The notes under the pieces: model-generated
What the model was told of the DNA's origin: nothing
Databases searched by the model: none
Seen by the model: only the letters and a program-made list of their open reading frames with translations
Shown here: in pieces, positions 1,633 to 35,145 of the stretch
Position numbering within the stretch: position 1 is the stretch's first letter
Layout of the letters: the number at the start of each line of letters is the position of its first letter
DNA from: Caldilineales bacterium
GTDB lineage: Bacteria > Chloroflexota > Anaerolineae > J102
Assembly: GCA_019695115.1 (NCBI GenBank)
Contig: JAIBAP010000012.1
Coordinates: forward strand, 1-45,000
DNA length: 45,000 nucleotides
Direction of reading: 5' to 3'
Translations under genes and position numbers: made by a program

Positions 1633-2784
1633 TTGCCCCTCACCCTCCCCCACCTCACCACCTTCCTCCAGGCCCTCGTCCGCGCCCGCTCGCTTTCGGG
1701 TGAGGAAGGGGCCGTCGTCCAGCTTGCCGCCGCCGAGATGCGGTTGCTGGGCTTCGACGACGTCCACATCGACGCCAACGGCAGCCTGATCGGCCTGATC
1801 CAGGGGGCGGGGCCAGGGCCAACCCTGCTGCTCGATGCGCATTGCGACACCGTCGGCGTGGCCCCCGGCGCGCCCTGGCGTCAGGAGCCGTTTGGAGCCG
1901 AGATCGTGGAGGATCGCATGTATGGGCGGGGGACGAGCGACATGAAGGGCGCTTTGGCGGCGATGGTGCATGCGGCGGCGGCGGTCGATCGGGCGAGCCT
2001 GGCCGGGCGGGTGGCCGTCAGCGCCACGGTCATGGAAGAGGTGATGGAGGGTGTCAGCCTGCGGGCGGTGATGGACTACGTCCAGCCAGACTTCGTCGTC
2101 ATCGGCGAGGCCACCGAACTCAACCTCAACCACGGCGGCCGGGGCCGGGCCGAAGTCCAGATCGAAGCCATCGGCAAGCCCGCCCATTCCTCCACCCCCC
2201 ACCTGGGCGAGAACGCCGTCCTCAAGATGCTGCCGGCCATCCAGACCATCGACCGCCTGCCCCTGCCCAGCGACCCCCTGCTCGGCCCCGGCCTCATGGC
2301 CCTCACCGACATCATCTCCGAGCCATACCCTGGCCATTCCGTCGTCCCCAGCCGCTGCCGCGTGACCTACGACCGCCGCCTCCTGACCGATGAAAGCATC
2401 GAGAGCGTCGTGACTGGGCTGAAGGCGCTGCCCGAGATGGCAAACATCCACGTGCGCATCGCCGACGGCGAGCACACCACCTACACCGGCGCCACCCTCA
2501 GCGGCCCCAAATTCTTCCCTGCCTGGAAACTTGAACCCGAACACCCCCTCGTTCAGGCATCCCTGGCGGGGCTGCGCGCGGCCGGCCTGAACCCCGGCCT
2601 TTCGGCCTATCGCTTCTGCACCAACGCCGCCTTCAGCGCCGGCTGGGCGGGCGTCCCCACCGTCGGCTTCGGCCCCTCGGCCGAGGGCCAGGCCCACGTG
2701 GTGGACGAATACATCGAACTCGATCAACTCTTCGCCGCCGCCCGCGGCTACCTCGGCATCATCCAGGCTGTGCTCGGTCGATGA
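1633..2784 (+). CDS. M20 family metallohydrolase, YgeY-like
   Basis: A 383-residue zinc aminoacylase/carboxypeptidase-fold enzyme of the ArgE/DapE/YgeY group, which hydrolyses amide bonds of small molecules in the cytoplasm. The family residues are visible: His70 and Asp72 in DAHCDTV, bridging Asp103 in GRGTSDMKG, the Glu135-Glu136 pair, Glu159 in IGEAT, and the last metal His in QAHVVDEY near residue 355. A dimerisation insert occupies about residues 170-290. The start is a TTG with GAGG nine bases upstream. YgeY is known from purine-degradation and selenium-dependent molybdenum hydroxylase clusters; the SsnA-, YgfM- and XdhD-like genes elsewhere in this window fit that grouping. ArgE- or DapE-type function in amino acid synthesis is the main alternative. 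Confidence 0.85.
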
Positions 2785-3388: not shown

Positions 3389-4414
<1,026 letters not shown>

Positions 4415-4850: not shown

Positions 4851-5156
4851 GTGCGGATCACTCGCTCCGATGCTTTCCTTCCCCCGCTCGAACGGGGAGA
4901 GCCGATCACCGTCAGCATCGACGGGCGGTCTGTGAGCGCCTTCGCTGGCGAATCGGTGGCGGCGGTGCTGCTGGCCGAGGGCATCCGCAGCTTCCGGCAG
5001 ACGGCGAAGAGGGGCGAGGGGCGGGGCCTGTTCTGCGGCATTGGCATTTGCTACGATTGCCTGGTGACGGTGGACGGAACCGCCAACCTGCGCGCCTGCC
5101 TGACGCCGGTGACGCCCGGCTGCGCTATCGAAACAGGGGCGAGGGGGCAGGCATGA
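4851..5156 (+). CDS. (2Fe-2S)-binding small subunit of HcnABC/sarcosine oxidase-type dehydrogenase
   Basis: A 101-residue ferredoxin-like protein of the HcnA / OoxA / sarcosine oxidase alpha N-terminal type. The [2Fe-2S] ligands are intact: Cys62, Cys67 and Cys70 in FCGIGICYDC, then Cys near 82 in RAC. It starts with a strand motif around ITVSIDGRSVSAFAGE. The reading frame is open further left, but that part is promoter DNA; the GTG at 4851 has AGGG nine bases upstream and the right family length. It overlaps the next gene by ATGA, so the two subunits are translated together. It would shuttle electrons from the FAD subunit (encoded far away at 11912-13066) in a membrane-linked amine dehydrogenase. 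Confidence 0.82.
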   Translation: MRITRSDAFLPPLERGEPITVSIDGRSVSAFAGESVAAVLLAEGIRSFRQTAKRGEGRGLFCGIGICYDCLVTVDGTANLRACLTPVTPGCAIETGARGQA

Positions 5157-6589
5157 CCGAGCGCGTCGATGTGGCCGTGGTGGGCGCGGGGCCGGCGGGA
5201 TTGCAGGCTGCCATCGTCGCCGCCCAGGCCGGGGCGAGGGTGGCCCTGATCGACAGCTATCCCCGGCCGGGCGGCCAGTACTTCAAGCAGCCGCCCGCCG
5301 CCTTTCGGGGTCACGACCGCTGGCGCCAGCAAGCGGCGCTGGACGCGCTGCTTGCGCACTTGGCGCGGCCCAACGCGCAGATTTTCGGCGAAACGTTGGT
5401 TTGGGGCGCGTTTGCAGCCGATGGCGGCGACGGCTGGCTGCTGGCGCTGCACGGCCCTGCCGCCCCCCATCGCCTGCACGCTCAGGCGCTGATCCTGGCC
5501 GCCGGCGCCTACGACCGCCCCATCCCCTTCCCCGGCTGGACGTTGCCCGGTGTGATGGCCGCCGGCGGGGTGCAAACGCTGATCAAGGGCCAGCGCCTGC
5601 TGCCGGGCCGCCGGGTGTTGCTTTCTGGCTCCGGGCCGCTGCAACTGGCCGTGGCCGCCGCCCTGGTGCACGCCGGGGCCGACGTGGTGGCCGTGTTGGA
5701 GGGGTCAGCGCTCGGCTTCTCGGCCCTGAAGCAAGCGCCTGCAGCCTGGGGCCAATGGTCGCGGCTGGCCGAAGGCTGGGGCTATCTGCGCACCCTGCGC
5801 GCGGCCGGCGCGCCCCTGCGTCGCGGCTGGGCGGTGGTGGCGGCGCACGGGCAAGGCGAAGTGCAGGAAGCGGTCATCGCCCGGCTCGACGCCGACTGGC
5901 GGCCCATCCCCGGCACGGCCCAGACCCTGGCCGTCGACACGATCGTGATTGGCTACGGCTTCATTCCCTCGACCGAACTGAGCCGATTGCTCGGCTGCGA
6001 GCATGATTTCGTTCCCGAACAGGGGGGCTACGTCCCCCGCCGCGACGACGAGATGCAGACGACATTGCCGGGCGTGTTTGCCGTGGGCGATGGCGCCGGC
6101 ATCGGCGGGGCCGCGCTGGCGCAGATCGAAGGCCGCATCGCCGGCATCGCCGCCGCCCACCGCCTGGGCTTTGTGAGCGCCGCCGAGGCCGAGCAGATGA
6201 AGGCGGCGCTGCGCCCGCACTGGCAGCGCGAGCGCCGTTTCGCCGCCATGCTCGGCCGGCTGTTCACGCCCGGGCCGGGGCTGTACACCCTCGCCGACGA
6301 CGACACCACCCTCTGCCGCTGCGAAGAGGTGACGGTGGGGCAGGTGCGCGCTGCCGCCGCCGATGGCGTGCAGTCGGTCAACGAGTTGAAAGGCTTGACG
6401 CGGGCCGGCATGGGCAACTGCCAGGGCCGCATCTGCGGCGAGCTGGCCGCGCGGCTGCTGGCCGACGCCGTGGGCGCCGACGCCGCCGACCCAAAACAGA
6501 TCGAGGCGATGGGCCGCTTCACCGTCCGCCCACCCATCCATCCCCTGCCCCTCTCCGTCCTGGCCGCCGCCGCCGAACCCACACCCTGA
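5153..6589 (+). CDS. FAD/NAD(P)-binding middle subunit of HcnABC-type amine dehydrogenase
   Basis: A 478-residue pyridine-nucleotide-disulphide-type flavoprotein of the HcnB / OoxA / sarcosine oxidase alpha family. It has a GAGPAG dinucleotide motif at residues 11-16, a second Rossmann motif (GSGPLQLA) near 163, the FAVGDGAGIGG flavin motif near 305, and a C-terminal BFD-type [2Fe-2S] domain with CRC at about 388-390 and CQGRIC at about 423-428. Such proteins form a heterotrimer with the small Fe-S subunit and a DadA-like FAD subunit and oxidise amines such as glycine, octopine, sarcosine or D-hydroxyproline. The ATG overlaps the previous stop (ATGA). The usual third gene is not next door; a candidate lies at 11912-13066. 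Confidence 0.85.
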   Translation: MTERVDVAVVGAGPAGLQAAIVAAQAGARVALIDSYPRPGGQYFKQPPAAFRGHDRWRQQAALDALLAHLARPNAQIFGETLVWGAFAADGGDGWLLALHGPAAPHRLHAQALILAAGAYDRPIPFPGWTLPGVMAAGGVQTLIKGQRLLPGRRVLLSGSGPLQLAVAAALVHAGADVVAVLEGSALGFSALKQAPAAWGQWSRLAEGWGYLRTLRAAGAPLRRGWAVVAAHGQGEVQEAVIARLDADWRPIPGTAQTLAVDTIVIGYGFIPSTELSRLLGCEHDFVPEQGGYVPRRDDEMQTTLPGVFAVGDGAGIGGAALAQIEGRIAGIAAAHRLGFVSAAEAEQMKAALRPHWQRERRFAAMLGRLFTPGPGLYTLADDDTTLCRCEEVTVGQVRAAAADGVQSVNELKGLTRAGMGNCQGRICGELAARLLADAVGADAADPKQIEAMGRFTVRPPIHPLPLSVLAAAAEPTP

Positions 6590-10341: not shown

Positions 10342-10935
10342 TCAGAAGGCCGGCGGGGTCATGGCCGAGATGAAACTGGCCTCGCCCTCGCTCGTCACCC
10401 GGATCGCTTCCAGGCTGCGCCCCTCGACATAAATGCTGTCCCCGGCCTGGAGGTGATGCGCCTGACCGCTGACGGTGACGGCGACGCTGCCCTGCACGAC
10501 CAGAATGCACTCTTCGGTGGGAACCATCAACGGCGGCCCCACCAGATTGCCGTCGGCGGCGGTGGCGTGCACCTGGAACAAGACCATTTTGTGATGCAGG
10601 TCGGGCACCATCAGCTCGATGCTGACATGGCCGGGCGTGACCACTGTGCGCCGGCGTTGGCGACGCCGCACCACCGGGTCGCGCTCGTCCGGCCCAGCCA
10701 GCAGGCGGAACAGGGGCGCGCCGAGGGCGTTGGCGATGGCGCGCAGGGTGTCGAGCGTGGGGTTGGCCCGGCCGTGCTCCAGCTTGCTGACGAAGGTGGC
10801 GCTCAGCCCGGTGGCCCTGGCCAGGTCGCGCACCCCCATGCCCAACTCCAGCCGCCGCGCCCGGATGCTGGCGCCCAGGCTTTCGTTCTCGGCCTGGTGG
10901 ATGTCGTCTTCGTGGATCGGTGCGGCGCTGGCCAC
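10342..10935 (-). CDS. XRE-family regulator with C-terminal cupin domain (copy 2)
   Basis: A 197-residue paralogue of the regulator at 7787-8374: acidic N-terminal tail, helix-turn-helix with VRDLARATGLSATFVSKLEH, then a cupin with TEECILVVQGSVAV and GDSIYVEG. The start is taken as GTG 10935, which has GGGGAG six bases upstream and sits three bases from the end of the Mch-type gene. The frame continues far upstream through the Mch gene but that is a shadow. It is the last gene of the minus operon, so it could act as its feedback regulator. The palindrome at the operon promoter is a candidate binding site (inference). Confidence 0.88.
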   Translation of the reverse strand: MASAAPIHEDDIHQAENESLGASIRARRLELGMGVRDLARATGLSATFVSKLEHGRANPTLDTLRAIANALGAPLFRLLAGPDERDPVVRRRQRRRTVVTPGHVSIELMVPDLHHKMVLFQVHATAADGNLVGPPLMVPTEECILVVQGSVAVTVSGQAHHLQAGDSIYVEGRSLEAIRVTSEGEASFISAMTPPAF

Positions 10936-10937
10936 GG

Positions 10938-11915
10938 TCAACTCCCCCCGAAGAACGAGCGCCGGAGCACCTGGCGGTTGATCTGCCCGCCGACGAAGCT
11001 GCGACCGCTCTGCAAGCTGTTGATGATCACCCTGGCGGGAGAATCGATCAGGTCGGGCACGGCAAACCAGTTGCGACCGAAATGGTCGAAAATCTGGGCA
11101 AAGGGCAGGCCCCAGAACTCGCCGGCGTTGACATCGAAGCAGAGCCGGGCGAGCACCGGGGCAATGGCCTCGTCGGGCGCATCGGCATAGAGGACGGTGG
11201 TGGCGCCGTAAAACAGACAGTCGTTCACCCGGCCCATGGCCTCGCCCTCCGTGGCCGCCAGCGGGGCGACAGGGGCGACGCCGAAGCCGTGGCGGACGCT
11301 GTGGATGTCGAAGCCGTGCAGGAAGAGCTTCACCATCACCTGCTCGACCGTGCGCGAGGCCACCTGGATGGCGCCGACCAGACAGGCGGTGGGAGCGAAG
11401 ACGACATAGACCCGGTCGGGCGACACCTGGCAGGCGTCGGCCACGAAGCGGCACAGCTCGTCGTTGGGGATGCGCTGCGTCTGCAACTGCACCACCACCT
11501 TGTCGGCGCCGCGGTCGCTGTAACCGCTGCCCGACCAACGGTCGGCCAGCGCCGCCGCCCGCGCCGGCCCCGACCCGATCTCGGCATACTCGCCCTGGCC
11601 CAACTCCCAGCATCCCGCTTGCGAGGCCACCACCGCGATCACCGGCTGATCGACCCAGACCTGGATCGTGGGCAGCACGAAGGGATCGAGATCGAAGACG
11701 CCGTAATCGGCCTTGCCCAGCCCGCCAAAACCGGCCTCCACGAACACCTGGCCGGCCTTCCAACTGCCGGGACAGGTCAGGCCCATATCCACCAGCATGG
11801 CGCCGCAATCGGCGCGCCAGGCTTTGATCTGCAACTCGTCGGCGCGGGCGATGGCGTCATCGATCATGGCCACGGCGGCCCGGTTGACGCTGTAGGTTTG
11901 CATGTCGAAGGTCAT
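10938..11915 (-). CDS. methenyltetrahydromethanopterin cyclohydrolase (Mch) homologue 1
   Basis: A 325-residue protein aligning end to end with Mch, the enzyme that hydrolyses methenyl-H4MPT to formyl-H4MPT. Seen features: SVNRAAVAMIDDAI at the start, CPGSWKAGQVFVEAGFGGL, GSGPARA at about 115-121, FAPTACLVGAIQVASRTVEQ with Arg188 and Glu191 (the pair matching catalytic Arg183/Glu186 of Archaeoglobus Mch), GFGVAPVAP, GRVNDCLFYGATT and a C-terminal RRSFFGGS. ATG 11915 overlaps the stop of the FAD oxidoreductase gene (ATGA), so translation is coupled to it; ATG 11903 is an alternative. No other H4MPT pathway genes are nearby, so I infer a different cyclic amidine substrate. A diverged second copy is at 18154-19122. 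Confidence 0.85.
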   Translation of the reverse strand: MTFDMQTYSVNRAAVAMIDDAIARADELQIKAWRADCGAMLVDMGLTCPGSWKAGQVFVEAGFGGLGKADYGVFDLDPFVLPTIQVWVDQPVIAVVASQAGCWELGQGEYAEIGSGPARAAALADRWSGSGYSDRGADKVVVQLQTQRIPNDELCRFVADACQVSPDRVYVVFAPTACLVGAIQVASRTVEQVMVKLFLHGFDIHSVRHGFGVAPVAPLAATEGEAMGRVNDCLFYGATTVLYADAPDEAIAPVLARLCFDVNAGEFWGLPFAQIFDHFGRNWFAVPDLIDSPARVIINSLQSGRSFVGGQINRQVLRRSFFGGS

Positions 11916-13066
11916 AGTGGCCTTTGCGGAGTGTGAAAACGGGCGGGGTCGAAGGCGTCGAGCGCCAGCCGCGGGGCGCGGCCCAGGATCATGCCGGCGA
12001 TCAGCTCGGACAGGATGGGCGTGGTGGTGATGGTCAGGTGAAAACAGGCGGCCACGAACAAGTTGTCGAAACCGGGCATCCAGCCGACGGCCGGCTGAGC
12101 GTCGGGCAGGAAGGGGCTTTGCCCTGTCCAGGCCCGCAGCACCCGCACATGGGCCAGCTTGGGCGCCAGACGCAGCAATTCGGCGGCCATGCCGGGCGGC
12201 CCCCAGAGGCTGGTGTGATGGCGCATGCGCTCGCCCATCTCTACCGATTCGGAAATATAGAGCGTGCCCGGCTGCATCTGCAAGACGCCCAACGACACTG
12301 CCCGCGGGGCATGGTGGATCGTCTCGTAGAAATCGGCCATGCCCAGGTGGTGCCGCAACACCGGCGGCAGCGGCTCGGAGACCATGGCCTCGGCGTTGGT
12401 CGAACGCACGGGCAGATGGGCGCCGGCCAGGGCCAACACCTGGCCCGACCAGGCGCCTGCCGCCACCAGCACCGCCCCGGCCGCGTACCGGCCCTGCGGC
12501 GTCCGCACCGCCGTCAGCCGCTGGCCGGCGCGCTCCAGGCCGATCACCGGCTCGTGCGCGGCCAGGGTGGCGCCATGCCGCCGGGCGGCGCGGGCAAAGG
12601 CCCAGCAGTACTTCTGCGGATGCAGATGGCCCTCCAGACACCAGGCCCCGCCCAGATAGTCATCCAGACAGAGCTCGGGTTCGGCCTGGCGCAGGGCGGC
12701 CGGGTCGAGCATGTCGGCGGGCAGGCCCAGCGATTTGAGCTGCGCCACCTGCGCCACCCATTCCTGCCAATGCTCCGGGCGGCGAATGAGCATGATATTC
12801 CCCAGCCGCCGCCAGTCGAAGCCGCAGTCCAGTTCGTCTTCCAATTGTTCCAGGCGGGCCAGACCCAGCATCACCAGCTGCAGATGCAGCCCCGGATGCC
12901 CCTCGGCCACCTGCGCCCGCCCGCCGCAGGCGCCCGATGAACCGCTGCCCAGGCCCCCGGCCTCCAACAGCAGCACGCTGGCGCCCTCGCCAGCCAGATG
13001 ATAGGCAATGGCATTGCCGATGAACCCCCCACCGACGATGACCACATCGTGTGATCGCTCAGCCAT
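11912..13066 (-). CDS. DadA/HcnC-type FAD-dependent oxidoreductase
   Basis: A 384-residue D-amino acid/glycine oxidase-fold flavoprotein. GGGFIGNAIAYHLA at residues 12-25 is the FAD-binding motif, the LLEAGGLGSGSSGA stretch follows, and RAWTGQSPFLPDAQPAVG plus the C-terminal ACFHLTITTTPILSELIA are typical of HcnC/SoxB-type subunits. It probably completes the heterotrimeric dehydrogenase whose other two subunits are at 4851-6589, though those are in a separate operon. It removes hydrogen from an amine C-N bond. Two bases separate it from the upstream ABC ATPase gene and it overlaps the Mch homologue by ATGA. Confidence 0.85.
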   Translation of the reverse strand: MAERSHDVVIVGGGFIGNAIAYHLAGEGASVLLLEAGGLGSGSSGACGGRAQVAEGHPGLHLQLVMLGLARLEQLEDELDCGFDWRRLGNIMLIRRPEHWQEWVAQVAQLKSLGLPADMLDPAALRQAEPELCLDDYLGGAWCLEGHLHPQKYCWAFARAARRHGATLAAHEPVIGLERAGQRLTAVRTPQGRYAAGAVLVAAGAWSGQVLALAGAHLPVRSTNAEAMVSEPLPPVLRHHLGMADFYETIHHAPRAVSLGVLQMQPGTLYISESVEMGERMRHHTSLWGPPGMAAELLRLAPKLAHVRVLRAWTGQSPFLPDAQPAVGWMPGFDNLFVAACFHLTITTTPILSELIAGMILGRAPRLALDAFDPARFHTPQRPL

Positions 13067-13068
13067 GC

Positions 13069-14637
13069 TCAGGCCCCTGCTGCATCTTTCACGCCGGCCA
13101 TCATCAACCCGATCTTCTGCGTGTTCGCCCGGTCGCCCGGGACCTCGCCCACGATCTGCCCCTCGTAGAGCACAGCGATGCGGTCGCTGAGCGCCAACAC
13201 CTCTTCCAGCTCGGTCGAGATCAGGAGGATGGCTGCCCCGCGCGCCCGCTGGCCGAGCAGCGTCGTGTGGATGTACTCGGTAGCGCCCACATCCAACCCG
13301 CGCGTGGGCTGGGCGGCGATGATCACGTCCGGGTCGTGGTCCAACTCGCGGCCGAGCACCACCTTCTGCTGGTTCCCGCCCGAAAGCTCCGCCGTCGTCG
13401 CCGTCAGCGAGCGGGTGCGGATATCGAACATCTTCACCAGGCGGGCGGCGTAGTCGAGGATGGCGCGCGGGCGCAGCACGCCCCGGCGGGTGAACGGCGG
13501 CCGGTTGTAGCGCTTGAGCGCCAGGTTGTCCGCCACCGAAAACTCCAGCACCAGGCCTTCGTTGTGCCGGTCTTCGGGGATGTGGCGCAGCCCGGCCTGG
13601 ATCATTGCCTGCGGCGACTTGCCGGCCATATCGACGCCGCCCAGCCGGATCCGCCCAGCCGCTGGCTGGATCAAACCGGCGATGGCCAGCGCCAACTCCG
13701 ACTGGCCGTTGCCATCCACCCCGGCGATGCCGACGATCTCGCCCCGGGCCACGCGCAGTGACAGATCCCTGATCACCTCGCGGCCTTCTTCGTTGCGAAC
13801 CGTCAGCCCTTCGATGGCGAGCATCTCCTCGCCCCGGGCCGGCGGCGGCTTCTCGAAGCTCATCTTGACCTCGCGGCCCACCATCAGTTGCGCCAGCTCG
13901 TGCGGCGTCGTCTGGCGCACGGAACGCTGACCCACCACCCGGCCATCGCGCAACACCGTCACCCGGTCGCCAGCGGCCATCACCTCGTTCAGCTTGTGGG
14001 TGATGAAGATGATCGACAGCCCGGCGGCGGTCAGGGTGCGCAGGGTGCGGAACAGGTCGGTCGTCTCCTGCGGCGTCAGGACCGCGGTCGGTTCATCGAG
14101 GATGAGCAGGTTGACGCCGCGGAACAGCGCCTTCACGATCTCCACCCGCTGCTGCTCGCCCACGCTGAGGCTGGACACGTGCGCCGCCGCATCGACCTTG
14201 AGACCGTAACGGGCCGAGACCTCCTCCACCTGCTTCTCGATCGCTTTCATGTTCGAGAGCAGCGACGCGCGGGAGAGGAGGGGCCGGGCGCCGAGGATGA
14301 CGTTCTCGGCCACGGTCAGCGGCGGCGCCAGCATGAAGTGTTGGTGCACCATGCCCACGCCCTGGGCGATGGCCTCATGCGGCGAGCGAATGGTCGCCGG
14401 CTTGCCGTCGATCTCGATCTGGCCGCCATCGGCGCGGTAGAGACCGTAGGCGATGTTCATCAGCGTCGTCTTGCCGGCGCCGTTTTCGCCCAACAGACAC
14501 ATCACCTCGCCCGGCATCACCTCCAGCGAGATGTGGTCGTTGGCCTTGAGCGCGTCGAAATGCTTGCTGATGTCCATCAGACGCAGTCGTGGGATGGCCG
14601 AGATGGCGGCCGATAGGGCGGCAGGGTTCGGGGTCAT
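13069..14637 (-). CDS. BMP/nucleoside-type ABC importer, double ATP-binding protein
   Basis: A 522-residue fused ATPase with two ABC domains, as in MglA/RbsA and YufO/NupA. The first has Walker A GENGAGKTT at 50-58, signature LSVGEQQR near 155 and Walker B LLILDEPTAVLT. The second has a degenerate Walker A (GVDGNGQSE), signature LSGGNQQK and a QPTRGLD replacing the usual DEPTRG Walker B. That pattern is normal for the family, with the first site hydrolysing ATP. It overlaps the permease gene by ATGA. The transporter type usually imports nucleosides or simple sugars; the BMP-type binding protein favours a nucleoside-like substrate. Confidence 0.92.
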   Translation of the reverse strand: MTPNPAALSAAISAIPRLRLMDISKHFDALKANDHISLEVMPGEVMCLLGENGAGKTTLMNIAYGLYRADGGQIEIDGKPATIRSPHEAIAQGVGMVHQHFMLAPPLTVAENVILGARPLLSRASLLSNMKAIEKQVEEVSARYGLKVDAAAHVSSLSVGEQQRVEIVKALFRGVNLLILDEPTAVLTPQETTDLFRTLRTLTAAGLSIIFITHKLNEVMAAGDRVTVLRDGRVVGQRSVRQTTPHELAQLMVGREVKMSFEKPPPARGEEMLAIEGLTVRNEEGREVIRDLSLRVARGEIVGIAGVDGNGQSELALAIAGLIQPAAGRIRLGGVDMAGKSPQAMIQAGLRHIPEDRHNEGLVLEFSVADNLALKRYNRPPFTRRGVLRPRAILDYAARLVKMFDIRTRSLTATTAELSGGNQQKVVLGRELDHDPDVIIAAQPTRGLDVGATEYIHTTLLGQRARGAAILLISTELEEVLALSDRIAVLYEGQIVGEVPGDRANTQKIGLMMAGVKDAAGA

Positions 14638-15560
14638 GCCCGCTCCTCGTAGGGGACGCCCAGGGCCTTGGGCTGCACCGATTGCCCGCGCAGCAGGATC
14701 ATGGCCACGAGGGTGGCGAGATAGGGCAGGATCTGCAAAAACTGATAGGCGACCTGCAAATTCTGGACTTGCAGCCGCAACTGCAAGGCATAGGTGAAGC
14801 CAAACAGCAGACAGGCCAGGAAGACGCCAAGCGGTCGCCAGCGCCCGAAGACGACGATGGCCAGGGCGATGAACCCGCGCCCGGCGACCATGTTCTCGAC
14901 GAAGACATTGGCCCAGGCGATGGTGAGATAGGCGCCGCCGACGCCGGCCAGCATGGCGCCGAAAATGGCGGCCCCGTAGCGCAGCCGGAGGACGGAGATG
15001 CCGGCGGTGGCCACGGCCCGCGGGTGTTCTCCGGCCGCGCGGATGGCCAGCCCCAGCATCGTCTTGTTCAGGACCAGGGCGGCGACGAAGGGGAGCACGA
15101 GCGCGGCGTAGACCAGCCAGTTGTGCTGGAACAAAATCGGCCCCAGCAAGGGGATGTCGCCCAGCACGGGGATGCGGGTGGCGGTCAGCGGCTGGATGCG
15201 GGCCGCGGGCACGGCGCCGAAGGCCACGCGGTAGACGAAACTGGAGAGGCCGAGGCCGATCAAATTGATCGCCGTCCCCGTCACAATCTGATTGGCGCGC
15301 AGGCTGACGGTGACGAGGGCAAAGATGGCCCCAAAGATACCTGCCGTCAGCGCCGCCGCCGCCACCGCCAGCGCCACCGATTGCGTGCCATACACGACCA
15401 GGTAGGCCGTGACCGCGCCGATCAGCATGATCCCCTCCAGCCCGATGTTGACCAGGCCGGCGCGTTCGTTGTAGGTCTCGCCGACCGAGGTGTAGATCAG
15501 CGGCGCGGCCATGCGCAGGGTGGTCTGCAAAAGCGATTGCAGGACGAGCAGGATGTCCAT
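14634..15560 (-). CDS. BMP/nucleoside-type ABC importer permease 2 (YufQ-like)
   Basis: A 308-residue inner-membrane permease of the BPD_transp_2 class, with eight to ten hydrophobic segments. NERAGLVNIGLEGIMLIGA near residues 30-48 is the family hallmark, and AIRAAGEHPRAVATAGISV is the cytoplasmic coupling loop that touches the ATPase. The ATG at 15560 is used; the longer frame upstream is a shadow of the first permease. It starts two bases after the first permease ends and overlaps the ATPase start. Confidence 0.9.
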   Translation of the reverse strand: MDILLVLQSLLQTTLRMAAPLIYTSVGETYNERAGLVNIGLEGIMLIGAVTAYLVVYGTQSVALAVAAAALTAGIFGAIFALVTVSLRANQIVTGTAINLIGLGLSSFVYRVAFGAVPAARIQPLTATRIPVLGDIPLLGPILFQHNWLVYAALVLPFVAALVLNKTMLGLAIRAAGEHPRAVATAGISVLRLRYGAAIFGAMLAGVGGAYLTIAWANVFVENMVAGRGFIALAIVVFGRWRPLGVFLACLLFGFTYALQLRLQVQNLQVAYQFLQILPYLATLVAMILLRGQSVQPKALGVPYEERA

Positions 15561-15562
15561 GG

Positions 15563-16657
15563 CTAGCGGCGGCCCAGTTTGTCGCCCAGGAGGCGGAAAG
15601 AAACCAGGAAGAGGATGACCAGGCCCTGGAGGATGTAGATCATGACATCGGGGATGCCGGCGGTCAGCTGCATCATCTGCGAGCCGGAACCGAGGGCGCC
15701 GAACAGCCAGCCGGACAGGATCACGCCCAGCGGGTTGTTGCTGGCCAGCAACGAAACGGCAATGCCCTGAAAGCCATAGCCCGGCGAAATGTTGGCGTAC
15801 AGCCGTTCGGTCACGCCCATCACCTCGACGGCGCCGGCGATGCCGGCGGCGCCGCCGCTGAGGAGCATGGCCAGCACGAACTGGCGGCCGACGTCGATGC
15901 CGGCGTGCCGGGCGGCGGTGGGGTTGAGGCCGACGGCGCGGATGGCGAAGCCCAACGGGGTGCGAAAGAGGCTGAAAGCCAGGACGGCGGCGGCGATGGC
16001 CGCCAGGATGAAGCCCAGGTGGACGCGGGTGGGCGGCCAGATGCGGGGCAGAAGGATGCTGCGGGCCACCAGATCGGTCTGCGGGTTGGCGCGGATGCTC
16101 TCCATCATCGGCCCGGTGATCAGAAAACTGACGAGACCGAGGGCGATGTAGTTGAGCATGATCGTCGTCACCACCTCGTTGAGGCCCAGCCGCACCTTCA
16201 GCCAGCCGGCGATCCCCGCCCAGACGCCGCCGAAGATGAAGCCGACGGCAATCGCCAGCGGGATGGCGACGGCGGGCGGCAAGCTGGCGGCGTTCAGCCC
16301 GAACCAGGCGGCGCCGATGGTCCCCAGATAGAACTGCCCCTCGGCGCCGATGTTCCAGATGCCGGCCCGGAAGGCCACGGCAATGCCCGCTCCGATCAGA
16401 ATCAGCGGCGTGGCGCGCAGAAAGGCCTCGCCGATGTTGCGCGTGTTGCCGAAGACGCCATCCCAGAGGGCGGCGTAGGCCGAGCGCACGTCGTAGCCGG
16501 CCAGCGCCAGGATCAGCGCCCCCACCGCCAATGCCGCCAGGATCGAGAGCACCGGCAGCAACACCCCGCGCCACAGCGCCTGTATCGAGTCGCGGCGGAG
16601 CCGGGGGGCTGCGGCTGGCCTGGCGGCAACGCCGCCGTGGTTGGGGCGATCGGTCAT
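15563..16657 (-). CDS. BMP/nucleoside-type ABC importer permease 1 (YufP-like)
   Basis: A 364-residue inner-membrane permease. A positively charged N-terminus (to about residue 30) leads into a hydrophobic segment; FRAGIWNIGAEGQFYLGTIG near residues 95-115 is the family hallmark, and AIRAVGLNPTAARHAGIDV is the coupling loop. About nine further hydrophobic segments. It is the partner of permease 2 and follows the binding-protein gene by 72 bases. Confidence 0.9.
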   Translation of the reverse strand: MTDRPNHGGVAARPAAAPRLRRDSIQALWRGVLLPVLSILAALAVGALILALAGYDVRSAYAALWDGVFGNTRNIGEAFLRATPLILIGAGIAVAFRAGIWNIGAEGQFYLGTIGAAWFGLNAASLPPAVAIPLAIAVGFIFGGVWAGIAGWLKVRLGLNEVVTTIMLNYIALGLVSFLITGPMMESIRANPQTDLVARSILLPRIWPPTRVHLGFILAAIAAAVLAFSLFRTPLGFAIRAVGLNPTAARHAGIDVGRQFVLAMLLSGGAAGIAGAVEVMGVTERLYANISPGYGFQGIAVSLLASNNPLGVILSGWLFGALGSGSQMMQLTAGIPDVMIYILQGLVILFLVSFRLLGDKLGRR

Positions 16658-16729
16658 CTTCGGGCGCGGACGACCCAGAACGAAGCAGGGGCGACCCCAG
16701 AACGGCCGGGGTCGCCCCTGCGGGGGATG

Positions 16730-17764
16730 TTATTCAGCGCCGGGGACCTTGATCTCGCCGGAACTGATCTTGTCGATGTTGGCCTGCAACTCGGCCTTCG
16801 CCTCATCCGTGAGGACATTGGCGGGCAGGTCGGGGTTGAAGACGATGGGGTAGGCAGCCAGATCGCCCGGATTCTGCAAGCGGAAGGTGATGGAACTGCC
16901 CGGTTCGATCGTCTTTTCCTTGATCGCCTTGATGGCGTTGAAGATCGATGTGGGCACGTCCTGCGCCAGGCTGAACAGCATGTTCTTGGGCGCCTGCGAA
17001 TTGACATCGCCCACGGTGCCGACCGCAAACACCTTGTCGCCGCCTTGCTCGGCCACAGCTTGCCACACGCCCGAACCGGCCAGGTTGGCGTTGGCGCTGA
17101 GGATGTCGGCGCCATTGGCCATGGCTTGCAGCGCCGCTTCTTTGGCCGCGCCGACGTCGTTCTGATCGTTCAGCGTCACCAGGCTGCACTCGTTGCCGGG
17201 AACGCTCTCGAAGCCGGCGATGAAGCCTTCGTTGGGTAGCTTGGTGGCGGGCATCTCCAGCGTGAAGGCGGCGCACTTATGGGTCTTGGACATCTTGCCC
17301 GCCAACATGCCGGCGGCGTACATGATCTGCACATAACCGGGGATGGTGTTGATCCCGGTCAGGTTCGGCCCCACACTGCTGCCGTTGACGATGACGTAGT
17401 AGGTGTTGGGGAACTGCGGCGCCACTTTGGCGGCCGCATCATCATACTGAAAGCCGTGGCCGACCACCACATCGAAGCCCTGGCTGCCGAAGTCGCTGAA
17501 GGCTTTCTCGTAGCCGGCCGGGTCGCCCACTTGCACGTTGGCGATCTCGGCCCCCAATTCTTTCTGAGCGCGCTGCTGGGCGGCGTAGGCCAGCCCGCTC
17601 CAGGAATCGGTGATGGGTGAGGGATGGACCAGGCCAACCTTGAAGGTATCGGCCGCAGGGGCGGGGGTAGCCGCGGGAGCAGGGGCGGCGCACGCGGATA
17701 GGACCAGCGATGCGACCAGCGTCAATGCCAGAATAAACCAGAGATGGCGCTTTGGCGATGTCAT
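16730..17764 (-). CDS. BMP family substrate-binding lipoprotein
   Basis: A 344-residue lipoprotein of the BmpA/PnrA (Med) class. The signal peptide ends in the lipobox LSAC with Cys25, followed by an Ala/Pro linker and VGLVHPSPITDSWSGL. GHGFQYDDAA, PGYVQIMYAAGMLAGKMSKT and the FIAGFESVPG segment fit the two-lobed binding fold. The ATG at 17764 has AGGAGGAAG upstream; a longer frame to 17875 is rejected. PnrA-type members bind purine nucleosides, which fits a heterocyclic substrate for this island, but the ligand cannot be read from sequence. First gene of a seven-gene minus operon under a consensus promoter at 17933-17961. Confidence 0.9.
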   Translation of the reverse strand: MTSPKRHLWFILALTLVASLVLSACAAPAPAATPAPAADTFKVGLVHPSPITDSWSGLAYAAQQRAQKELGAEIANVQVGDPAGYEKAFSDFGSQGFDVVVGHGFQYDDAAAKVAPQFPNTYYVIVNGSSVGPNLTGINTIPGYVQIMYAAGMLAGKMSKTHKCAAFTLEMPATKLPNEGFIAGFESVPGNECSLVTLNDQNDVGAAKEAALQAMANGADILSANANLAGSGVWQAVAEQGGDKVFAVGTVGDVNSQAPKNMLFSLAQDVPTSIFNAIKAIKEKTIEPGSSITFRLQNPGDLAAYPIVFNPDLPANVLTDEAKAELQANIDKISSGEIKVPGAE

Positions 17765-17932
17765 GTTTCTTCCTCCTGAAACGGTTGGAAAGGCGGAACG
17801 ACATTGGTCAGGGATACTGATGCGCTTCTTTGGTGTTGCAGGCAACCTCCTTCTTGTAGCCAGGCCGTGGCCCAAGGATGGCGTCTCGAAAGCGATTTAC
17901 TTCGACAACCTGTCGGCATGAAACCGCGCCCC

Positions 17933-17961
17933 ATTATAGCAAGGCGCCCTACGATTGTCAA
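17933..17961 (-). promoter_or_regulatory. consensus sigma-70-type promoter of bmp operon
   Basis: On the minus strand, TTGACA (17961-17956) and TATAAT (17938-17933) are separated by exactly 17 bases, a perfect match to the consensus. Transcription would start near 17926. Such a strong promoter normally needs repression, and a palindrome covers its -35 box. Confidence 0.7.
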
Positions 17962-17969
17962 CTGACAAT
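17954..17969. promoter_or_regulatory. palindromic operator candidate
   Basis: ATTGTCA-AC-TGACAAT is a perfect seven-base inverted repeat around a two-base centre. It overlaps the -35 box of the bmp promoter, so a bound protein would block transcription. Part of the match is the -35 sequence itself, which weakens the argument. Related sites are at 17992-18005 and 4729-4742. Confidence 0.45.
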
Positions 17970-17991
17970 TTGCGTTGGGGAAGTGCGTAAA

Positions 17992-18005
17992 CTGTGGGTT
18001 GACAA
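17992..18005 (-). promoter_or_regulatory. second operator-like site, over the plus promoter
   Basis: Read on the minus strand this is TTGTCAACCCACAG, 11 of 14 positions identical to TTGTCAACTGACAA. It covers the -35 box of the plus promoter. As in the first site, the -35 consensus contributes to the similarity. Confidence 0.3.
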
Positions 18006-18027
18006 GGAGGGTCTCGTCTGCTATTCT
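17999..18027 (+). promoter_or_regulatory. sigma-70-type promoter of the mch2 operon
   Basis: TTGACA at 17999-18004 and TATTCT at 18022-18027 with a 17-base spacer. Transcription would start near 18034, about 120 bases before the ATG at 18154. Confidence 0.62.
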
Positions 18028-18153
18028 TTGCCCCGATAGGGTTTCGGGCTTGATCCGAGCCGCTTCGCCGTTGCAAGCTCTATACACCCGGCGCTCTCAA
18101 ACACCGCCTGACAAACTGGCTCTGACAGCATTCCCCTCTGGAGACCTCCGACC

Positions 18154-19122
18154 ATGCTAAGCGTCAATCTCGAAGCCATGAAAATCGTGCGCAAGATCCT
18201 CGACTCGCCGGAGGCCCTCGGCGTCGAGGTCTCTCGCTTTGCCAATGGCAGCACCCTGATCGACATGGGTCAGCGGGCGCGAGGGAGCTGGCAGGCCGGC
18301 CGCTATTTCACGCAGGTGACGGTGGGAGGGCTGGGCGAGGTGAGTTTCGAGAGCTTCGCGCTGGGACGGGTGCGGCTGCCGGCCGTGCGTCTGGCGGTGA
18401 ATCGGCCGCTGGAAGCCTGCATGGGCTGTCAGGTGGCAGGCTGGCGGCTGGTCGATGAGCCGGATGCACCGATTCTGGCTGGCCCGGCCCGCACCCTCAA
18501 CACCCCGCCCGATTATCATGTGCAGTTGAGCGGCTACCGCGACCATCATCACGAGGGCGTGGTGACGGTGCAGATGTCGCGGCCTGTGACCGAAGCGATG
18601 GCGGTGGTGATGGCGAGGGCATGCGGCCTGGCCCCGGAAAATCTCTACATCCTGGCCTCGCGGCACGCCTGCCTGGTCTCCACCGTCCAGGTGCCGGCCC
18701 GCGGGATCGAGACGGCCATGCACCGGTTGGCGCTGGAGGGCTTCGACCTGGGCTGCATCCAACAGGCCTGGTGCACCGGCCCCATCCCGCCCCTGGTCGA
18801 GGACGAGTTGCAGTCGATGGGGCGGATCAACGACGCCCTTTACTACGGCAGCGCGGTCTGGCTAACTGTCGATGCGCCGGACGCGCTGCTCGAGACGATC
18901 GTCCCCAAAGTGGTCAGCGAGGTCTCGCCGCTGGCTCGCCGGCCCTTTGCCGACCTGTACCGCGACGCCGGCTATGATTTCCATGCCATCCCGCTCGACG
19001 CTCACACCCCCGCCATCCTCCACCTGACCAACATCAACAGCGGCCGCACTTTTTCGGCCGGTCATTTCGACGACGAAGTATTGCAGAGATCGTTCTTCTC
19101 CGGCAGTATCCAGCCGCACTGA
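18154..19122 (+). CDS. methenyltetrahydromethanopterin cyclohydrolase (Mch) homologue 2
   Basis: A 322-residue Mch-family protein, clearly diverged from the copy at 10938. MLSVNLEAMKIVRKIL at the start, GSWQAGRYFTQVTVGGLGEVS at about 44-64, AGPARTLNTP at about 109-118, ACLVSTVQVPARGIETAMHRL with Arg183 and Glu186 in the same places as the catalytic pair described for Archaeoglobus Mch, GRINDALYYGSAVWLTVD and QRSFFSGS near the end. A His-rich YRDHHHEG insertion at 128-135 and replacement of the usual GVAPIAP by CTGPIPP are odd, so the substrate pocket is probably altered. The ATG has GGAG 11 bases upstream. First gene of a six-gene operon with the E1/E2 dehydrogenase genes. Confidence 0.82.
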   Translation: MLSVNLEAMKIVRKILDSPEALGVEVSRFANGSTLIDMGQRARGSWQAGRYFTQVTVGGLGEVSFESFALGRVRLPAVRLAVNRPLEACMGCQVAGWRLVDEPDAPILAGPARTLNTPPDYHVQLSGYRDHHHEGVVTVQMSRPVTEAMAVVMARACGLAPENLYILASRHACLVSTVQVPARGIETAMHRLALEGFDLGCIQQAWCTGPIPPLVEDELQSMGRINDALYYGSAVWLTVDAPDALLETIVPKVVSEVSPLARRPFADLYRDAGYDFHAIPLDAHTPAILHLTNINSGRTFSAGHFDDEVLQRSFFSGSIQPH

Positions 19123-19132
19123 GGCAAAGGCC

Positions 19133-20106
19133 ATGACGATTGACCCCCAAGTTCTGCTCGATCTCTATCGAGATATGTGGATCGTGCGCTCCTTCGAGTT
19201 CGGCCTGGAGCGCGAGTTCAAGAAGGGCAATGTGCCCGGCATGTTGCACACCGGCGTCGGCCAGGAAGCCGTACAGTCCGCCATCGCCGCCGCTCTGCGC
19301 CACACCGACGCCTTCTTCCCCGACCATCGCTGCCACGGGCTGCTGGTGTTGGCCGGCACGCCGGGCCAGAAGATCATGGCCGAGTTGTTCGGCAAGGCCA
19401 CGGGCGTGTGCAGCGGCAAGGGCGGCTCGCTCCATTCCGCCGACCCGGCCGTGGGCAATTACGGCGACAACGCCGTGGAAGGTTCGATGATGGCGACGGC
19501 GCTGGGTGTGGCCCTGGGCTTCCAGATGCAGGGCCGCGATGATCTGGCGGCGGTGATCGTCGGCGACGGCACTTCGGGCCGCGGCGAATGGCACGAGAGC
19601 CTGAATCTGGCCGCCACCTGGAAGCTGCCGGTGCTGTATTGCTGCGTCAACAACGGCTATGCCATCTCCACCGCCGTCGGCAAAAGCCACGCCACCGCCG
19701 ATCTGTACGAGTTCGCCGCCGCCTACAAGATGCCATCGGTGCAAGTGGATGGCAATGATGTGGTCGCCGCCTACGAGATCACGCAGCGGGCAGTCGAGCA
19801 CATTCGCGCCGGCGGCGGGCCGTATTTCGTGGAATACAAGACCTGGCGCTGGCAGGGCATCTTCAGCGGCGAGTTCCGCCCACCGGAAGAGGTGCGCTAT
19901 TGGAAGGAAGAACATGAGCCGATCAAAGTGGCGCGCGAGCGCATCCTGACGGCCGGCATCGCCGGCGAGAGCCAACTCGACCAGATCAAAGCCGAGGTGG
20001 AGGCGGAGGTGGAGGGGTGGATCGCCTTCGCCCTGGCCAGCCCGCCACCCGATCCGGCCAAAGCCACCGCCAATGTCTACGTAGGCTGGGAAGTGGAGGG
20101 ACGCAA

Positions 20107-20110
<4 letters not shown>
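19133..20110 (+). CDS. thiamine-diphosphate dehydrogenase E1 alpha subunit (AcoA/PdhA-like)
   Basis: A 325-residue E1 alpha subunit of a 2-oxoacid or acetoin dehydrogenase complex. The ThDP motif is visible as GDGTSGRGEWHESLN about residue 143 followed by CVNNGYAIS near 171. GKGGSLHSAD is typical of the family. It decarboxylates a 2-oxoacid (or splits acetoin) with its beta partner and passes the acyl group to a lipoyl arm. It starts 10 bases after Mch homologue 2 and overlaps E1 beta by ATGA. A named substrate cannot be given; the low-specificity layout fits acetoin-type or a novel alpha-keto substrate. Confidence 0.88.
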
Positions 20111-21084
<974 letters not shown>

Positions 21085-22116: not shown

Positions 22117-22184
22117 TGGACGATAGACGATGGACGATGGATCGTCTCTCCACCTGCCACCTGCCACCTGCCACCTGCGACCTG
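22115..22184. repeat. two heptamer runs (GATGGAC and CCACCTG)
   Basis: Four GATGGAC-type heptamers at 22115-22142, overlapping the E2 stop, and five CCACCTG-type heptamers at 22150-22184. GACGAT-GG-ATCGTC forms a small perfect hairpin at their junction. Same seven-base period as the CACG arrays but different unit. Confidence 0.7.
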
Positions 22185-22192
22185 CCCCCCCC

Positions 22193-23575
22193 ATGCTCTC
22201 TGCCAACTTCCTTCTCACTCACGGCCTGATCGTCACGCAAGACGCCGCCCGCACTGTCATCGCCGACGGCGCCATCGCCATTGCCGGGGAGCGCATCGCC
22301 GCGGTGGGGCCAACAGCAGAACTGGTGGGGCAGTTCCAGGCGGGCGAGGTGGTCGATTTGGGCGGGGATGCCGTCTTCCCCGGCCTGATCGATGTCCACA
22401 CCCACCTTTTCCAGACCGCCAGCAAGGGCTTGGGCGAGGCGTGGCCGGTGCATGAGTGGGTGGGCGAGGTGACGGCCCCGATCGCCGCCCACATCCGCCC
22501 GGAGGAGACGTATCTGGTCTGTCTGACCGGCTGCCTGGAGCACATCCACAGCGGCGTGACCTCGCTGATCGATATGAGCTACGCCGCCACGAGCTATGAA
22601 TTGCACGAGGCCAACATCCAGGCCATGCTCGATAGCGGCCTGCGGGCGCGCTACAGCAGCATCATCGCCGATTATGGCGAGTTCAACATCCCGGCCATCC
22701 TCCTCAAGCCGATCGACCGTTTTCTGCAGGAGTACCGGCGCTTGCTGGCGCAGTTTCCGCCCGGCGACCGCATGGCTGTTTGGCCGGCCATCGGCGCGCC
22801 GTGGGTGGCCACCGATGAGGCGATGATCCGGGCGCGGGCCTTCAGCCGCGAGGTGGGCGCGCCCATGATCATGCATCTGAACGAGAACGGGGTGGATAAC
22901 GAACTGATCCGCCGGCGGTGCGGCAAGGATGCCATTGCCTGGCTGGACGAGATCGATTTTCTCGGCCCCGACTTTCTTGCCATCCACTGCGTGCGCATGA
23001 GCGAGGACGAAATCCGGGTGCTGGCCGAGCGGGGGGTGATGGTGGCCTACAACCCGGCCAGCAACATGTACCTGGGTTCCGGGATTGCGCCGATGGTGAA
23101 GATGGCCGGCGCCGGCATCACGGTCGGGCTGGGCGTGGATGGCGCCGGCAGCAACAATTCGCAGGATATGATCGAGACGCTGAAGCTGGCGGCGCTGCTG
23201 CAAAAAGTCGGGGCGCAGGATGCCTCGGTCATCGACGCGCAGACCGTCTTGGATTGGGCGACGCTGGGCGGGGCCAGGATTCTGGGGATGGAGGACCAGA
23301 TCGGTTCGCTGGAAGCCGGCAAGAAAGCCGACCTGTTCGTGCTCTCGCGCAATTCAGCCAAGATCGTGCCCGCGCACGACCCCGTGACCACGTTGGTCTA
23401 TTCGGCAGGCGAGGAGAATGTGACCATGACCATCGCCGATGGCCGCGTGCTGATGCGCGACCGCGTCATCCAGCATCTCGATGAAGCGGACATTCTGCGC
23501 CGCACCCAAACCGCGGCCCTGGCCCTGGCCGCTCGCTCCGGCGCCAACCGCCGTTTGCGCCGCTTCTGGCGGTAG
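22193..23575 (+). CDS. SsnA/TrzN-type amidohydrolase (copy 1)
   Basis: A 460-residue metal-dependent hydrolase of the amidohydrolase superfamily (cytosine/guanine/SAH deaminase, AtzB/TrzN, SsnA). Metal and catalytic residues: His69 and His71 in DVHTHLFQ, His228 and Glu231 in MHLNENG, His265 in IHCVRM, Asp316 in GVDGAGSNN. A beta-sandwich domain frames the barrel at both ends (about 1-60 and 400-440). Members usually deaminate or dechlorinate a nitrogen heterocycle such as guanine, 8-oxoguanine or pterin. The ATG at 22193 is chosen; a frame open to 22130 crosses the repeats. Last gene of the mch2 operon. The HLNEN motif instead of HVAET, seen in copy 2, suggests a different substrate. Confidence 0.85.
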   Translation: MLSANFLLTHGLIVTQDAARTVIADGAIAIAGERIAAVGPTAELVGQFQAGEVVDLGGDAVFPGLIDVHTHLFQTASKGLGEAWPVHEWVGEVTAPIAAHIRPEETYLVCLTGCLEHIHSGVTSLIDMSYAATSYELHEANIQAMLDSGLRARYSSIIADYGEFNIPAILLKPIDRFLQEYRRLLAQFPPGDRMAVWPAIGAPWVATDEAMIRARAFSREVGAPMIMHLNENGVDNELIRRRCGKDAIAWLDEIDFLGPDFLAIHCVRMSEDEIRVLAERGVMVAYNPASNMYLGSGIAPMVKMAGAGITVGLGVDGAGSNNSQDMIETLKLAALLQKVGAQDASVIDAQTVLDWATLGGARILGMEDQIGSLEAGKKADLFVLSRNSAKIVPAHDPVTTLVYSAGEENVTMTIADGRVLMRDRVIQHLDEADILRRTQTAALALAARSGANRRLRRFWR

Positions 23576-31797: not shown

Positions 31798-33153
31798 ATG
31801 TCCACCCTCCTGATCGAAAACGGCGCCATCCTCACCCTCGATGACGCCCAACACCTCCTCAACCCCGGCTACCTCCTGATCGAAGACGACCGCATTGCAG
31901 CGATGGGCCAGGGCGACGCGCCCGCCAGCCTGCGCCGGGCCGACGCCATCATCGACGCCCGCCTCATGGCCGTCATGCCCGGCATGGTCAACGCCCACAC
32001 CCACCTCTTCCAGACCTTCATCCGCGGCCTGGCCGACGACAAACCCCTGCTGGAATGGTTGAAAGCCGCCATCTGGCCGGTGGCGCAGGCCCTGACCGCC
32101 GAAGAAGCCTATGTGGCGGCGCTGGTGGGGCTGGTGGAAAACCTCCGGGGTGGGGCCACCGCCGTCATCGACCACCAATACATCCACACCGAACCGGGCA
32201 ACGATGACGGCGTCTGCCAGGCGGCCGAGGAAGTGGGCATCCGCTTCCTGCTCGCGCGCGGCTGGGCCGACGTGGACTACCACCCCACCCTGATGGAGAC
32301 GCCCGACCGCATCGTGGCCGAGACCGAGCGCCTGCGCCAGACCTGGCACGGCCGCGACGGCGGACGCATTCGCGTCGAGTTCGGACCGCTCATCCCCTGG
32401 GGCTGCACCGACGAGACCATGCTGCGCACCCAACGCATTTCGGATGGTTGGCAGGCGGGCACGCACATCCACGTGGCCGAGACACAGACCGAGGTGGCCA
32501 TCAACCTGGACAAGCGGGGCAATCGCCACATCGAATGGCTGGCCGAACTGGGCGTTCTGGGGCCAGGGATGCAGCTGGTACACAGTGTTTGGCTCAGCGA
32601 CCACGAAATCGACCTCATCGCCCAGTCTGGCGCGGTCGTCGTGCACTGCCCGGTCAGCAACATGTACCTGGCCTCAGGCGTGGCCCGCGTGCCTGAAATG
32701 CGCTCCCGCGGCATCACCATCGCCCTGGCCTCGGACGGCCCTGGCAGCAACAACAGCCAGGACATGCTGGAAACCCTCAAGACCACCGCCCTGCTGCACA
32801 AAGTGAGCACTCTCAACGCCCAGATCCTGCTGCCCGAAGATGTGCTATGGATGGCCTGCCGGGGCGGCGCCGTCGCCTTCGGCCAACCCCACCTGATCGG
32901 CTCGCTCGAAGTCGGCAAAAAGGCCGACGTCGTCCTCATCGACCTCGACACCCCCCTGGCCATGCCCGTCCACCGCCTCCCCTCGGCCCTGGTCTACAAT
33001 GCCTGCGCTCGCGACACCGACACCGTCATCGTCGATGGCCGGGTGCTCATGCGCCACAAGCAGATCACCGTCCTCGACGAAAAAGCCCTCCTCGCCCGCG
33101 CCCGCCGCGCCTGCCAGAATCTATTCGAGCGCGCCGGCGTACGCGTGGCATAG
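31798..33153 (+). CDS. SsnA/TrzN-type amidohydrolase (copy 2)
   Basis: A 451-residue amidohydrolase, the canonical-looking partner of copy 1. His67 and His69 in NAHTHLFQTF, His225 and Glu228 in HVAET, His262 in VHSVWLS and Asp313 in ASDGPGSNN. The HVAETQTE motif is typical of TrzN/AtzB and SsnA-type or 8-oxoguanine deaminase enzymes, which deaminate nitrogen heterocycles. Beta-sandwich ends frame the barrel. ATG 31798 is used. SsnA is a regular part of selenium-dependent molybdenum hydroxylase clusters, matching the XdhD-like gene downstream. Gene order hydroxyacid dehydrogenase, amidohydrolase, pteridine reductase-type SDR suggests one operon. Confidence 0.88.
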   Translation: MSTLLIENGAILTLDDAQHLLNPGYLLIEDDRIAAMGQGDAPASLRRADAIIDARLMAVMPGMVNAHTHLFQTFIRGLADDKPLLEWLKAAIWPVAQALTAEEAYVAALVGLVENLRGGATAVIDHQYIHTEPGNDDGVCQAAEEVGIRFLLARGWADVDYHPTLMETPDRIVAETERLRQTWHGRDGGRIRVEFGPLIPWGCTDETMLRTQRISDGWQAGTHIHVAETQTEVAINLDKRGNRHIEWLAELGVLGPGMQLVHSVWLSDHEIDLIAQSGAVVVHCPVSNMYLASGVARVPEMRSRGITIALASDGPGSNNSQDMLETLKTTALLHKVSTLNAQILLPEDVLWMACRGGAVAFGQPHLIGSLEVGKKADVVLIDLDTPLAMPVHRLPSALVYNACARDTDTVIVDGRVLMRHKQITVLDEKALLARARRACQNLFERAGVRVA

Positions 33154-35123: not shown

Positions 35124-35145
35124 GCCCCCCTCAAAGGAGTTTGCC

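Follow-up and report, generated by a model that had tools for sequence, protein, structure and literature searches.

In known methenyl-tetrahydromethanopterin cyclohydrolase (Mch), water attacks the amidinium carbon of methenyl-tetrahydromethanopterin (methenyl-H4MPT), yielding N5-formyl-H4MPT. To our knowledge, the Mch fold is known for this single reaction of one-carbon (C1) metabolism only, and genome surveys read mch genes as signs of H4MPT-linked C1 metabolism. A 45,000-nucleotide stretch of the genome of a Caldilineales bacterium, phylum Chloroflexota (contig JAIBAP010000012.1; hereafter, the window) encodes two diverged Mch-like proteins, Mch1 and Mch2, for which we tentatively predict another role, as hydrolases that open cyclic-amidine rings in the reductive catabolism of imported purine- or pterin-like compounds, outside the H4MPT pathway. 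Two further described systems are relevant here. The haloarchaeal Mch and Mer homologues HVO_2573 and HVO_1937 have been proposed to use tetrahydrofolate (PMC8305020). The reductive urate pathway, described in 2025, uses a Mo hydroxylase, a reductase and SsnA to prepare the purine and cleave it; its cluster comprises XdhD-YgfK/UacX/F420-type reductase-SsnA-HyuA-YgeW/UacY-YgeY-YgeX, and the Chloroflexota clusters carry an F420-type reductase of the luciferase family (PMC12507026).

Both window proteins match the full Pfam MCH model (PF02289), with 296 bits for Mch1 and 295 bits for Mch2 (cut-off 25), and both pass the equivalog cut-off of 229 for NCBIfam TIGR03120, with 263 and 249 bits, so a chance match is excluded. 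At E < 0.001, the only PDB entries that match their predicted structures (mean predicted local distance difference test score 92 for Mch1 and 90 for Mch2) are those of Mch, and the TM-scores are about 0.9. An Arg/Glu pair, R188/E191 in Mch1 and R183/E186 in Mch2, aligns with R183/E186 of Archaeoglobus fulgidus Mch. Both copies thus possess the full-length fold, the family matches and the catalytic pair by which Mch (EC 3.5.4.27) is recognized, and the retained pair argues for the same reaction class as that of the known enzyme. The original prediction, made from the letters of the window, had described two Mch-fold paralogues with this residue pair and had suggested structure modelling and phylogeny as checks; profiles, models and alignment agree with it. 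The difference it noted between the loops of the two copies (GFGVAPVAP versus CTGPIPP) is real, but its 'HHH insertion' in Mch2 is not an insertion, since the segment GYRDHHHEG aligns with 1QLM and 4GVQ without gaps and differs from them by substitution.

The two copies, which are 32% identical to each other, are separated from canonical Mch in trees of 53 and 71 sequences. A canonical clade comprising the archaeal enzymes and the bacterial Mch proteins linked to Fhc genes is supported at 100/99 and excludes both Mch1 and Mch2, so neither groups tightly with known Mch. As the root is not fixed, the non-canonical sequences (here called the branch) may be monophyletic or a grade. Mch1 belongs to a Chloroflexota clade, its other near relatives coming from Anaerolineales and other Chloroflexi metagenome-assembled genomes (MAGs); the Mch2 clade holds other Chloroflexota and one Halanaerobiales copy, and Clostridioides difficile and other Clostridia make up a further separate clade. 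We considered a recent local duplication and rejected it, because each copy has orthologues elsewhere and belongs to a supported clade of its own. The branch also has a residue signature. R183 is present in 51/51 non-canonical sequences, and position 186 is E (46 sequences) or D (5); E140 and F280, both invariant in 18 canonical sequences, are replaced by Q in 49/51 and by H or D in 48/51 non-canonical sequences, respectively. Two proteins of the canonical clade (L020 of genome G112, L015 of G034) appear to have Ala at the Glu186 position, one of them being the second copy of G112.

In a scan of named genomes, the branch appeared in Chloroflexota MAGs, Pseudoflavonifractor, Clostridium sp., C. 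difficile, Peptococcaceae and Halanaerobiales, with one to about five copies per genome; four genomes (G217, G298, G300 and G301) contain one branch gene as their only Mch gene. Mch1 and Mch2 both have counterparts (86% and 81% identical) in G199, a genome of the same genus as the host, where importer and DAO genes again adjoin Mch1. What looked like a local oddity of the window is one instance of a branch common to two phyla, Chloroflexota and Bacillota. We found no prior description of the branch or of its gene cassette in the open-access literature, and it is apparently new.

We assessed gene presence across genomes family by family. The host assembly (5.99 Mb, listed as 100% complete) has exactly two Mch genes, and beta-RFAP synthase, Ftr and Fae were not found in it (Mtd/MtdB were not searched). 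By contrast, the positive controls, same-class genomes with canonical Mch, have beta-RFAP synthase and Ftr in 3/3 cases and Fae in the one tested. Nor did the tested genomes of C. difficile, Clostridium sp. and Halanaerobiales yield any of the three markers. Of the window proteins scanned, none proved to be the product of an fmd, ftr or H4MPT-synthesis gene, as originally noted, yet a Mer-like protein that had gone unmentioned is present: every one of its top-scoring solved structures is a Mer (E 1e-33 to 1e-26), although at 159 bits it does not reach the Mer equivalog cut-off of 276. The genome-wide search thus revealed no sign that H4MPT synthesis is encoded, and together with the tree it supports the original proposal that two Mch-fold paralogues have diverged and stand apart from the H4MPT pathway. 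That Mch1 and Mch2 are nonetheless ordinary methenyl-H4MPT cyclohydrolases is suggested by the TIGR03120 scores and by the close match of the predicted fold to 1QLM/4GVQ. However, the marker genes are missing from the host, both copies lie outside the canonical clade and Fhc genes occur in none of the 43 branch loci described below. On missing genes, tree and neighbourhoods we reject the canonical role, which is hardly probable at all. The host does have an F420 ligase, the model by which we judged F420 capacity in place of CofD (PF01933); the latter proved non-diagnostic, since it also matches a widespread paralogue (Escherichia coli was positive in the control).

Gene neighbourhoods were compared by tblastn between 43 non-canonical loci, drawn from 25 genome labels, and 12 canonical ones, a method chosen because a simple open reading frame (ORF) caller picked the wrong strand for some genes (e.g. 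in loci L040 and L066). Methanofuran-type genes are confined to the canonical loci: FhcA was found in 0 branch versus 8 canonical loci, Ftr in 0 versus 10 and FhcC in 0 versus 10. ATP-grasp genes behave alike (0/43 versus 11/12). The branch loci instead share a recurring catabolic neighbourhood. E1 alpha of 2-oxoacid dehydrogenases was found in 17/43 branch and 0/12 canonical loci (p 0.011) and a BMP protein in 14/43 versus 0/12 (p 0.025), p-values that are a guide only, given the common descent of loci and the lack of a correction for the roughly twenty families compared. E1 beta (16/43 versus 0/12), E2 (13/43 versus 0/12) and importer permeases (15 versus 0) are distributed similarly. SDR (17/43 versus 2/12) and amidohydrolase genes (17 versus 1) lean the same way without individual significance, and Mo hydroxylase (7/43 versus 0/12), Mer-like (8 versus 0), RibD_C (6 versus 0) and DAO genes (6 versus 0) are likewise individually non-significant.

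Individual loci illustrate this pattern. The C. difficile locus runs from an NCS2-type permease through XDH subunits, SDR, Mch, E1 alpha, E1 beta, E2, an amidohydrolase and a RibD_C-like reductase to E3, the NCS2, RibD_C and E3 identities being assigned by inspection. Two Mch-like genes lie around E1/E2 genes in two Halanaerobiales and two Clostridia genomes. In G217, the gene for a Mer-like protein 75% identical to that of the window overlaps the stop codon of the Mch-like gene. YgeY, SsnA-like and hydantoinase genes adjoin the Mch1 orthologues of L116, and in L040 D-hydantoinase, Mer-like and XDH genes occur near a relative from clade I, the clade of Mch1. Two genomes combine both kinds of protein: besides a canonical Mch in an Fhc cluster, G308 has four Mch-like copies at other sites, and in G311 a single contig holds both an Fhc-linked Mch and a Mch-like copy; some of these Mch-like copies sit in catabolic settings. 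Three further observations concern these loci. In two loci of Pseudoflavonifractor G299 (L099:9194-10860 and L098:8117-9791), a short divergent Mch-like ORF, 231 amino acids long in L099 and seemingly without the Arg/Glu region, overlaps a full-length Mch-like gene; these may be catalytic/non-catalytic pairs. By inspection, aldehyde:ferredoxin oxidoreductase-like genes occur near Mch-like genes in Chloroflexota and Clostridia loci (L050, L102, L111 and L114). Also by inspection, genes resembling DHPS-fold pterin methyltransferases lie close to them in L051, L052, L053 and L100.

Ring opening, a predicted reaction, is the part of the original suggestion (two successive ring-opening or ring-closing steps) that best fits the catabolic context. 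More tentatively than for the window pair, we propose that the Mch-fold branch of both phyla, including C. difficile and Chloroflexota, consists of ring-opening cyclic-amidine hydrolases of an undescribed reductive degradation of purine- or pterin-like compounds that ends in a 2-oxoacid dehydrogenase. The imported compound would be reduced by the Mer-like F420-type reductase in Chloroflexota, or by a RibD/DHFR-like reductase in Clostridia. Each Mch-like enzyme would then hydrolyse a cyclic amidine (N-CH=N), so that the ring is opened after reduction. A reduced pterin, or a reduced purine without the 8-oxo group, would present a cyclic formamidine, which a Mch-type enzyme could cleave although hydantoinases would not be expected to. 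The Mo hydroxylase and the SsnA/ATZ-type amidohydrolases may condition or open the other ring, DAO and SDR enzymes could produce a keto compound, and E1/E2/E3 would convert this to an acyl-CoA. The two copies would be separate enzymes, each with its own ring-opening step or with one of two related substrates. Relatives of Mch, Mer, DHPS-fold proteins and RibD bind pterins or aminopyrimidines. We also considered a catabolism specific to pterins, but the evidence does not separate pterin from purine substrates.

Several observations weigh against this proposal. The neighbours vary by locus, the most frequent non-Mch gene reaching at most 17/43, partly because of short contigs, and SDR, FGGY kinase, HTH-cupin and amidohydrolase genes are common types whose frequencies are not significantly different in the canonical loci. 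G217 has a Mer-like gene, yet no match to F420 ligase. YgeX (diaminopropionate ammonia-lyase) was not found in the host genome (best match 53 bits, cut-off 532), and the C. difficile YgeX genes lie on contigs other than that of its Mch gene. The main rival, which we think rather unlikely, is that these Mch enzymes have moved to tetrahydrofolate or a simple tetrahydropterin and handle formyl or methenyl units released in catabolism by N-demethylating or glycine-type oxidases (DAO/SoxA-like). The haloarchaeal homologues predicted to act on tetrahydrofolate provide a precedent (PMC8305020), the neighbours include the Mer-like protein and, in four loci, the DHPS-fold methyltransferase-like genes, and the DAO gene directly precedes Mch1. 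On the other hand, FolD, found in the host and in 15/16 other genomes tested, already covers methenyl-tetrahydrofolate cyclohydrolase activity, which makes a simple tetrahydrofolate role redundant, though possible. Furthermore, this reading would not account for genomes with as many as five paralogues, or for the purine-type transporters, the amidohydrolases and the Mo hydroxylases.

The urate pathway offers another explanation, which we consider less likely again: Mch1 could perform a step of a Chloroflexota variant of that pathway, for example on purines without the 8-oxo group, with Mch2 in a second pathway. A variant with XdhD, F420-type reductase, SsnA, HyuA and YgeY has been described (PMC12507026). 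The window has a YgeY above its cut-off, together with SsnA-like, XdhD-like, YgfM-like and luciferase-family genes, and the same gene types adjoin the Mch1 orthologues in L116 and L040. However, the SsnA-like and XdhD-like proteins score below their model cut-offs, the host's only strong D-hydantoinase is on another contig and known urate chemistry needs no amidine hydrolase. With YgeX absent from the host, the pathway is not identical to the published urate route and differs from it at the end; DAO and E1/E2 offer a keto-acid route. The separate contigs of YgeX and the Mch cassette in C. difficile also speak against it. The original prediction had further raised the idea that Mch1 and Mch2 form one heteromeric enzyme. 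Both copies are indeed kept in the same-genus genome, several other genomes have two or more, and at the two Pseudoflavonifractor loci a short divergent ORF accompanies the full-length copy. Nevertheless, the window copies belong to opposite operons and to separate, anciently diverged clades, and the four single-copy genomes manage with one; such a heteromer is thus very unlikely. Ring-opening hydrolysis of cyclic amidines by two separate enzymes is the reading we tentatively retain.

The features of the window are collected in the table. As originally described, the two operons are divergent, the minus-strand one being transcribed from ~17.9 kb and the plus-strand one from 18154. The former runs from the BMP binding protein through two permeases, the ABC ATPase and the DAO-family flavoprotein to Mch1, whose start overlaps the DAO stop by 4 bp, and the HTH-cupin regulator; the latter consists of Mch2, E1 alpha, E1 beta, a stand-alone lipoyl domain, the E2 catalytic domain and an amidohydrolase.

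Table. Coordinates of the Mch-like genes and other features of the window.
Feature	Position	Strand	Remark
YgeY-family M20 hydrolase	1633..2784	+	396 bits, cut-off 321
Mer-like luciferase-family (F420-type) oxidoreductase	3389..4414	+	159 bits, Mer equivalog cut-off 276
HcnB/SoxA-like NAD(P)/2Fe-2S protein, possible partner of DAO protein	5048..6589	+	family match
HTH_3-cupin regulator, adjoins Mch1	10342..10938	-	similar regulator by Mch-like genes in 8/43 loci
Mch1, Mch-like protein, clade I	10938..11915	-	325 amino acids; final metabolic gene of minus-strand operon
DAO-family FAD amine oxidase/dehydrogenase (glycine/sarcosine oxidase-like)	11912..13066	-	close to Mch-like genes in 6/43 loci
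ABC ATPase, BMP/nucleoside-type (putative B6-like) importer	13069..14637	-	family match
Importer permease (BPD_transp_2)	14634..15563	-	family match
Importer permease (BPD_transp_2)	15563..16657	-	family match
BMP/PnrA-like substrate-binding protein	16730..17875	-	family match
Palindrome TTGTCAACTGACAA (14 bp, TTGTCA-AC-TGACAA), candidate operator	17955..17968	.	divergent promoter region
Mch2, Mch-like protein, clade II	18154..19122	+	322 amino acids; opens plus-strand operon
2-oxoacid dehydrogenase E1 alpha	19133..20110	+	family match
2-oxoacid dehydrogenase E1 beta	20107..21084	+	family match
Stand-alone lipoyl domain protein, 80 amino acids	21174..21416	+	family match
E2 catalytic domain without lipoyl domain, 231 amino acids	21421..22116	+	family match
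ATZ/TRZ-type amidohydrolase	22130..23575	+	family match
Second ATZ/SsnA-like amidohydrolase	31798..33153	+	below SsnA model cut-off
FAD_binding_5 (YgfM-like) subunit of Mo hydroxylase	35095..35886	+	family match
XDH/XdhD-type Mo hydroxylase, 2Fe-2S and Mo domains fused	37430..40447	+	below XdhD model cut-off

The palindrome TTGTCAACTGACAA is the sole exact TTGTCANNTGACAA across the 6 Mb genome; as it was not found at the same-genus locus, an operator role is only a guess. The E2 of the window is split into separate lipoyl and catalytic proteins, and lipoyl proteins from L040, L056, L057 and L104 cluster with that of the window. Directly upstream of the Mer-like gene, at ~3150-3388, lie short repeats of 7-codon units that merge with its frame and place the mechanical ORF start 597 bp too early. 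An orphan FTCD_C protein (formiminotransferase-cyclodeaminase C-terminal domain) is encoded at 30023-30658, with an SDR gene on one side and a 2-hydroxyacid dehydrogenase gene on the other. The catabolic region is interrupted by genes for PDDEXK_3 (23606-24031), an N6/N4 DNA methylase (35891-36706) and a DUF5615/PIN-like protein (37011-37385), the last two of which separate the FAD subunit of the Mo hydroxylase from its catalytic subunit.

Because the NCBI and Pfam models call both window proteins Mch, gut Clostridia and Chloroflexota may be falsely credited with C1 metabolism. If the ring-opening role is true, an anaerobic route of heterocycle degradation exists in cultured gut bacteria.

Compared with described systems, the window proteins are most similar to Mch itself (PF02289, TIGR03120; 1QLM, 4FIO, 4GVQ-4GVS), sharing the whole-length fold, the Arg183/Glu186 pair and 29-36% identity in fold searches; they differ in lying outside the H4MPT clade, in the changes of E140 to Q and of F280 to H/D, and in their catabolic operons without marker H4MPT or methanofuran genes. 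Mer, the F420-dependent methylene-H4MPT reductase, provides the closest solved relatives of the window's luciferase-family protein, which nevertheless scores far under the Mer equivalog cut-off. With the urate cluster, the window has in common an XdhD-like Mo hydroxylase, a luciferase-family reductase, a SsnA-like amidohydrolase and YgeY, as well as the hydantoinase near Mch1 orthologues, whereas Mch-like enzymes and E1/E2 are added here and the host has no YgeX. Finally, the haloarchaea likewise have Mch and Mer homologues without methanopterin, but theirs form one central C1 pair, whereas the genes described here are often multi-copy and belong to catabolic cassettes in genomes that also encode FolD.

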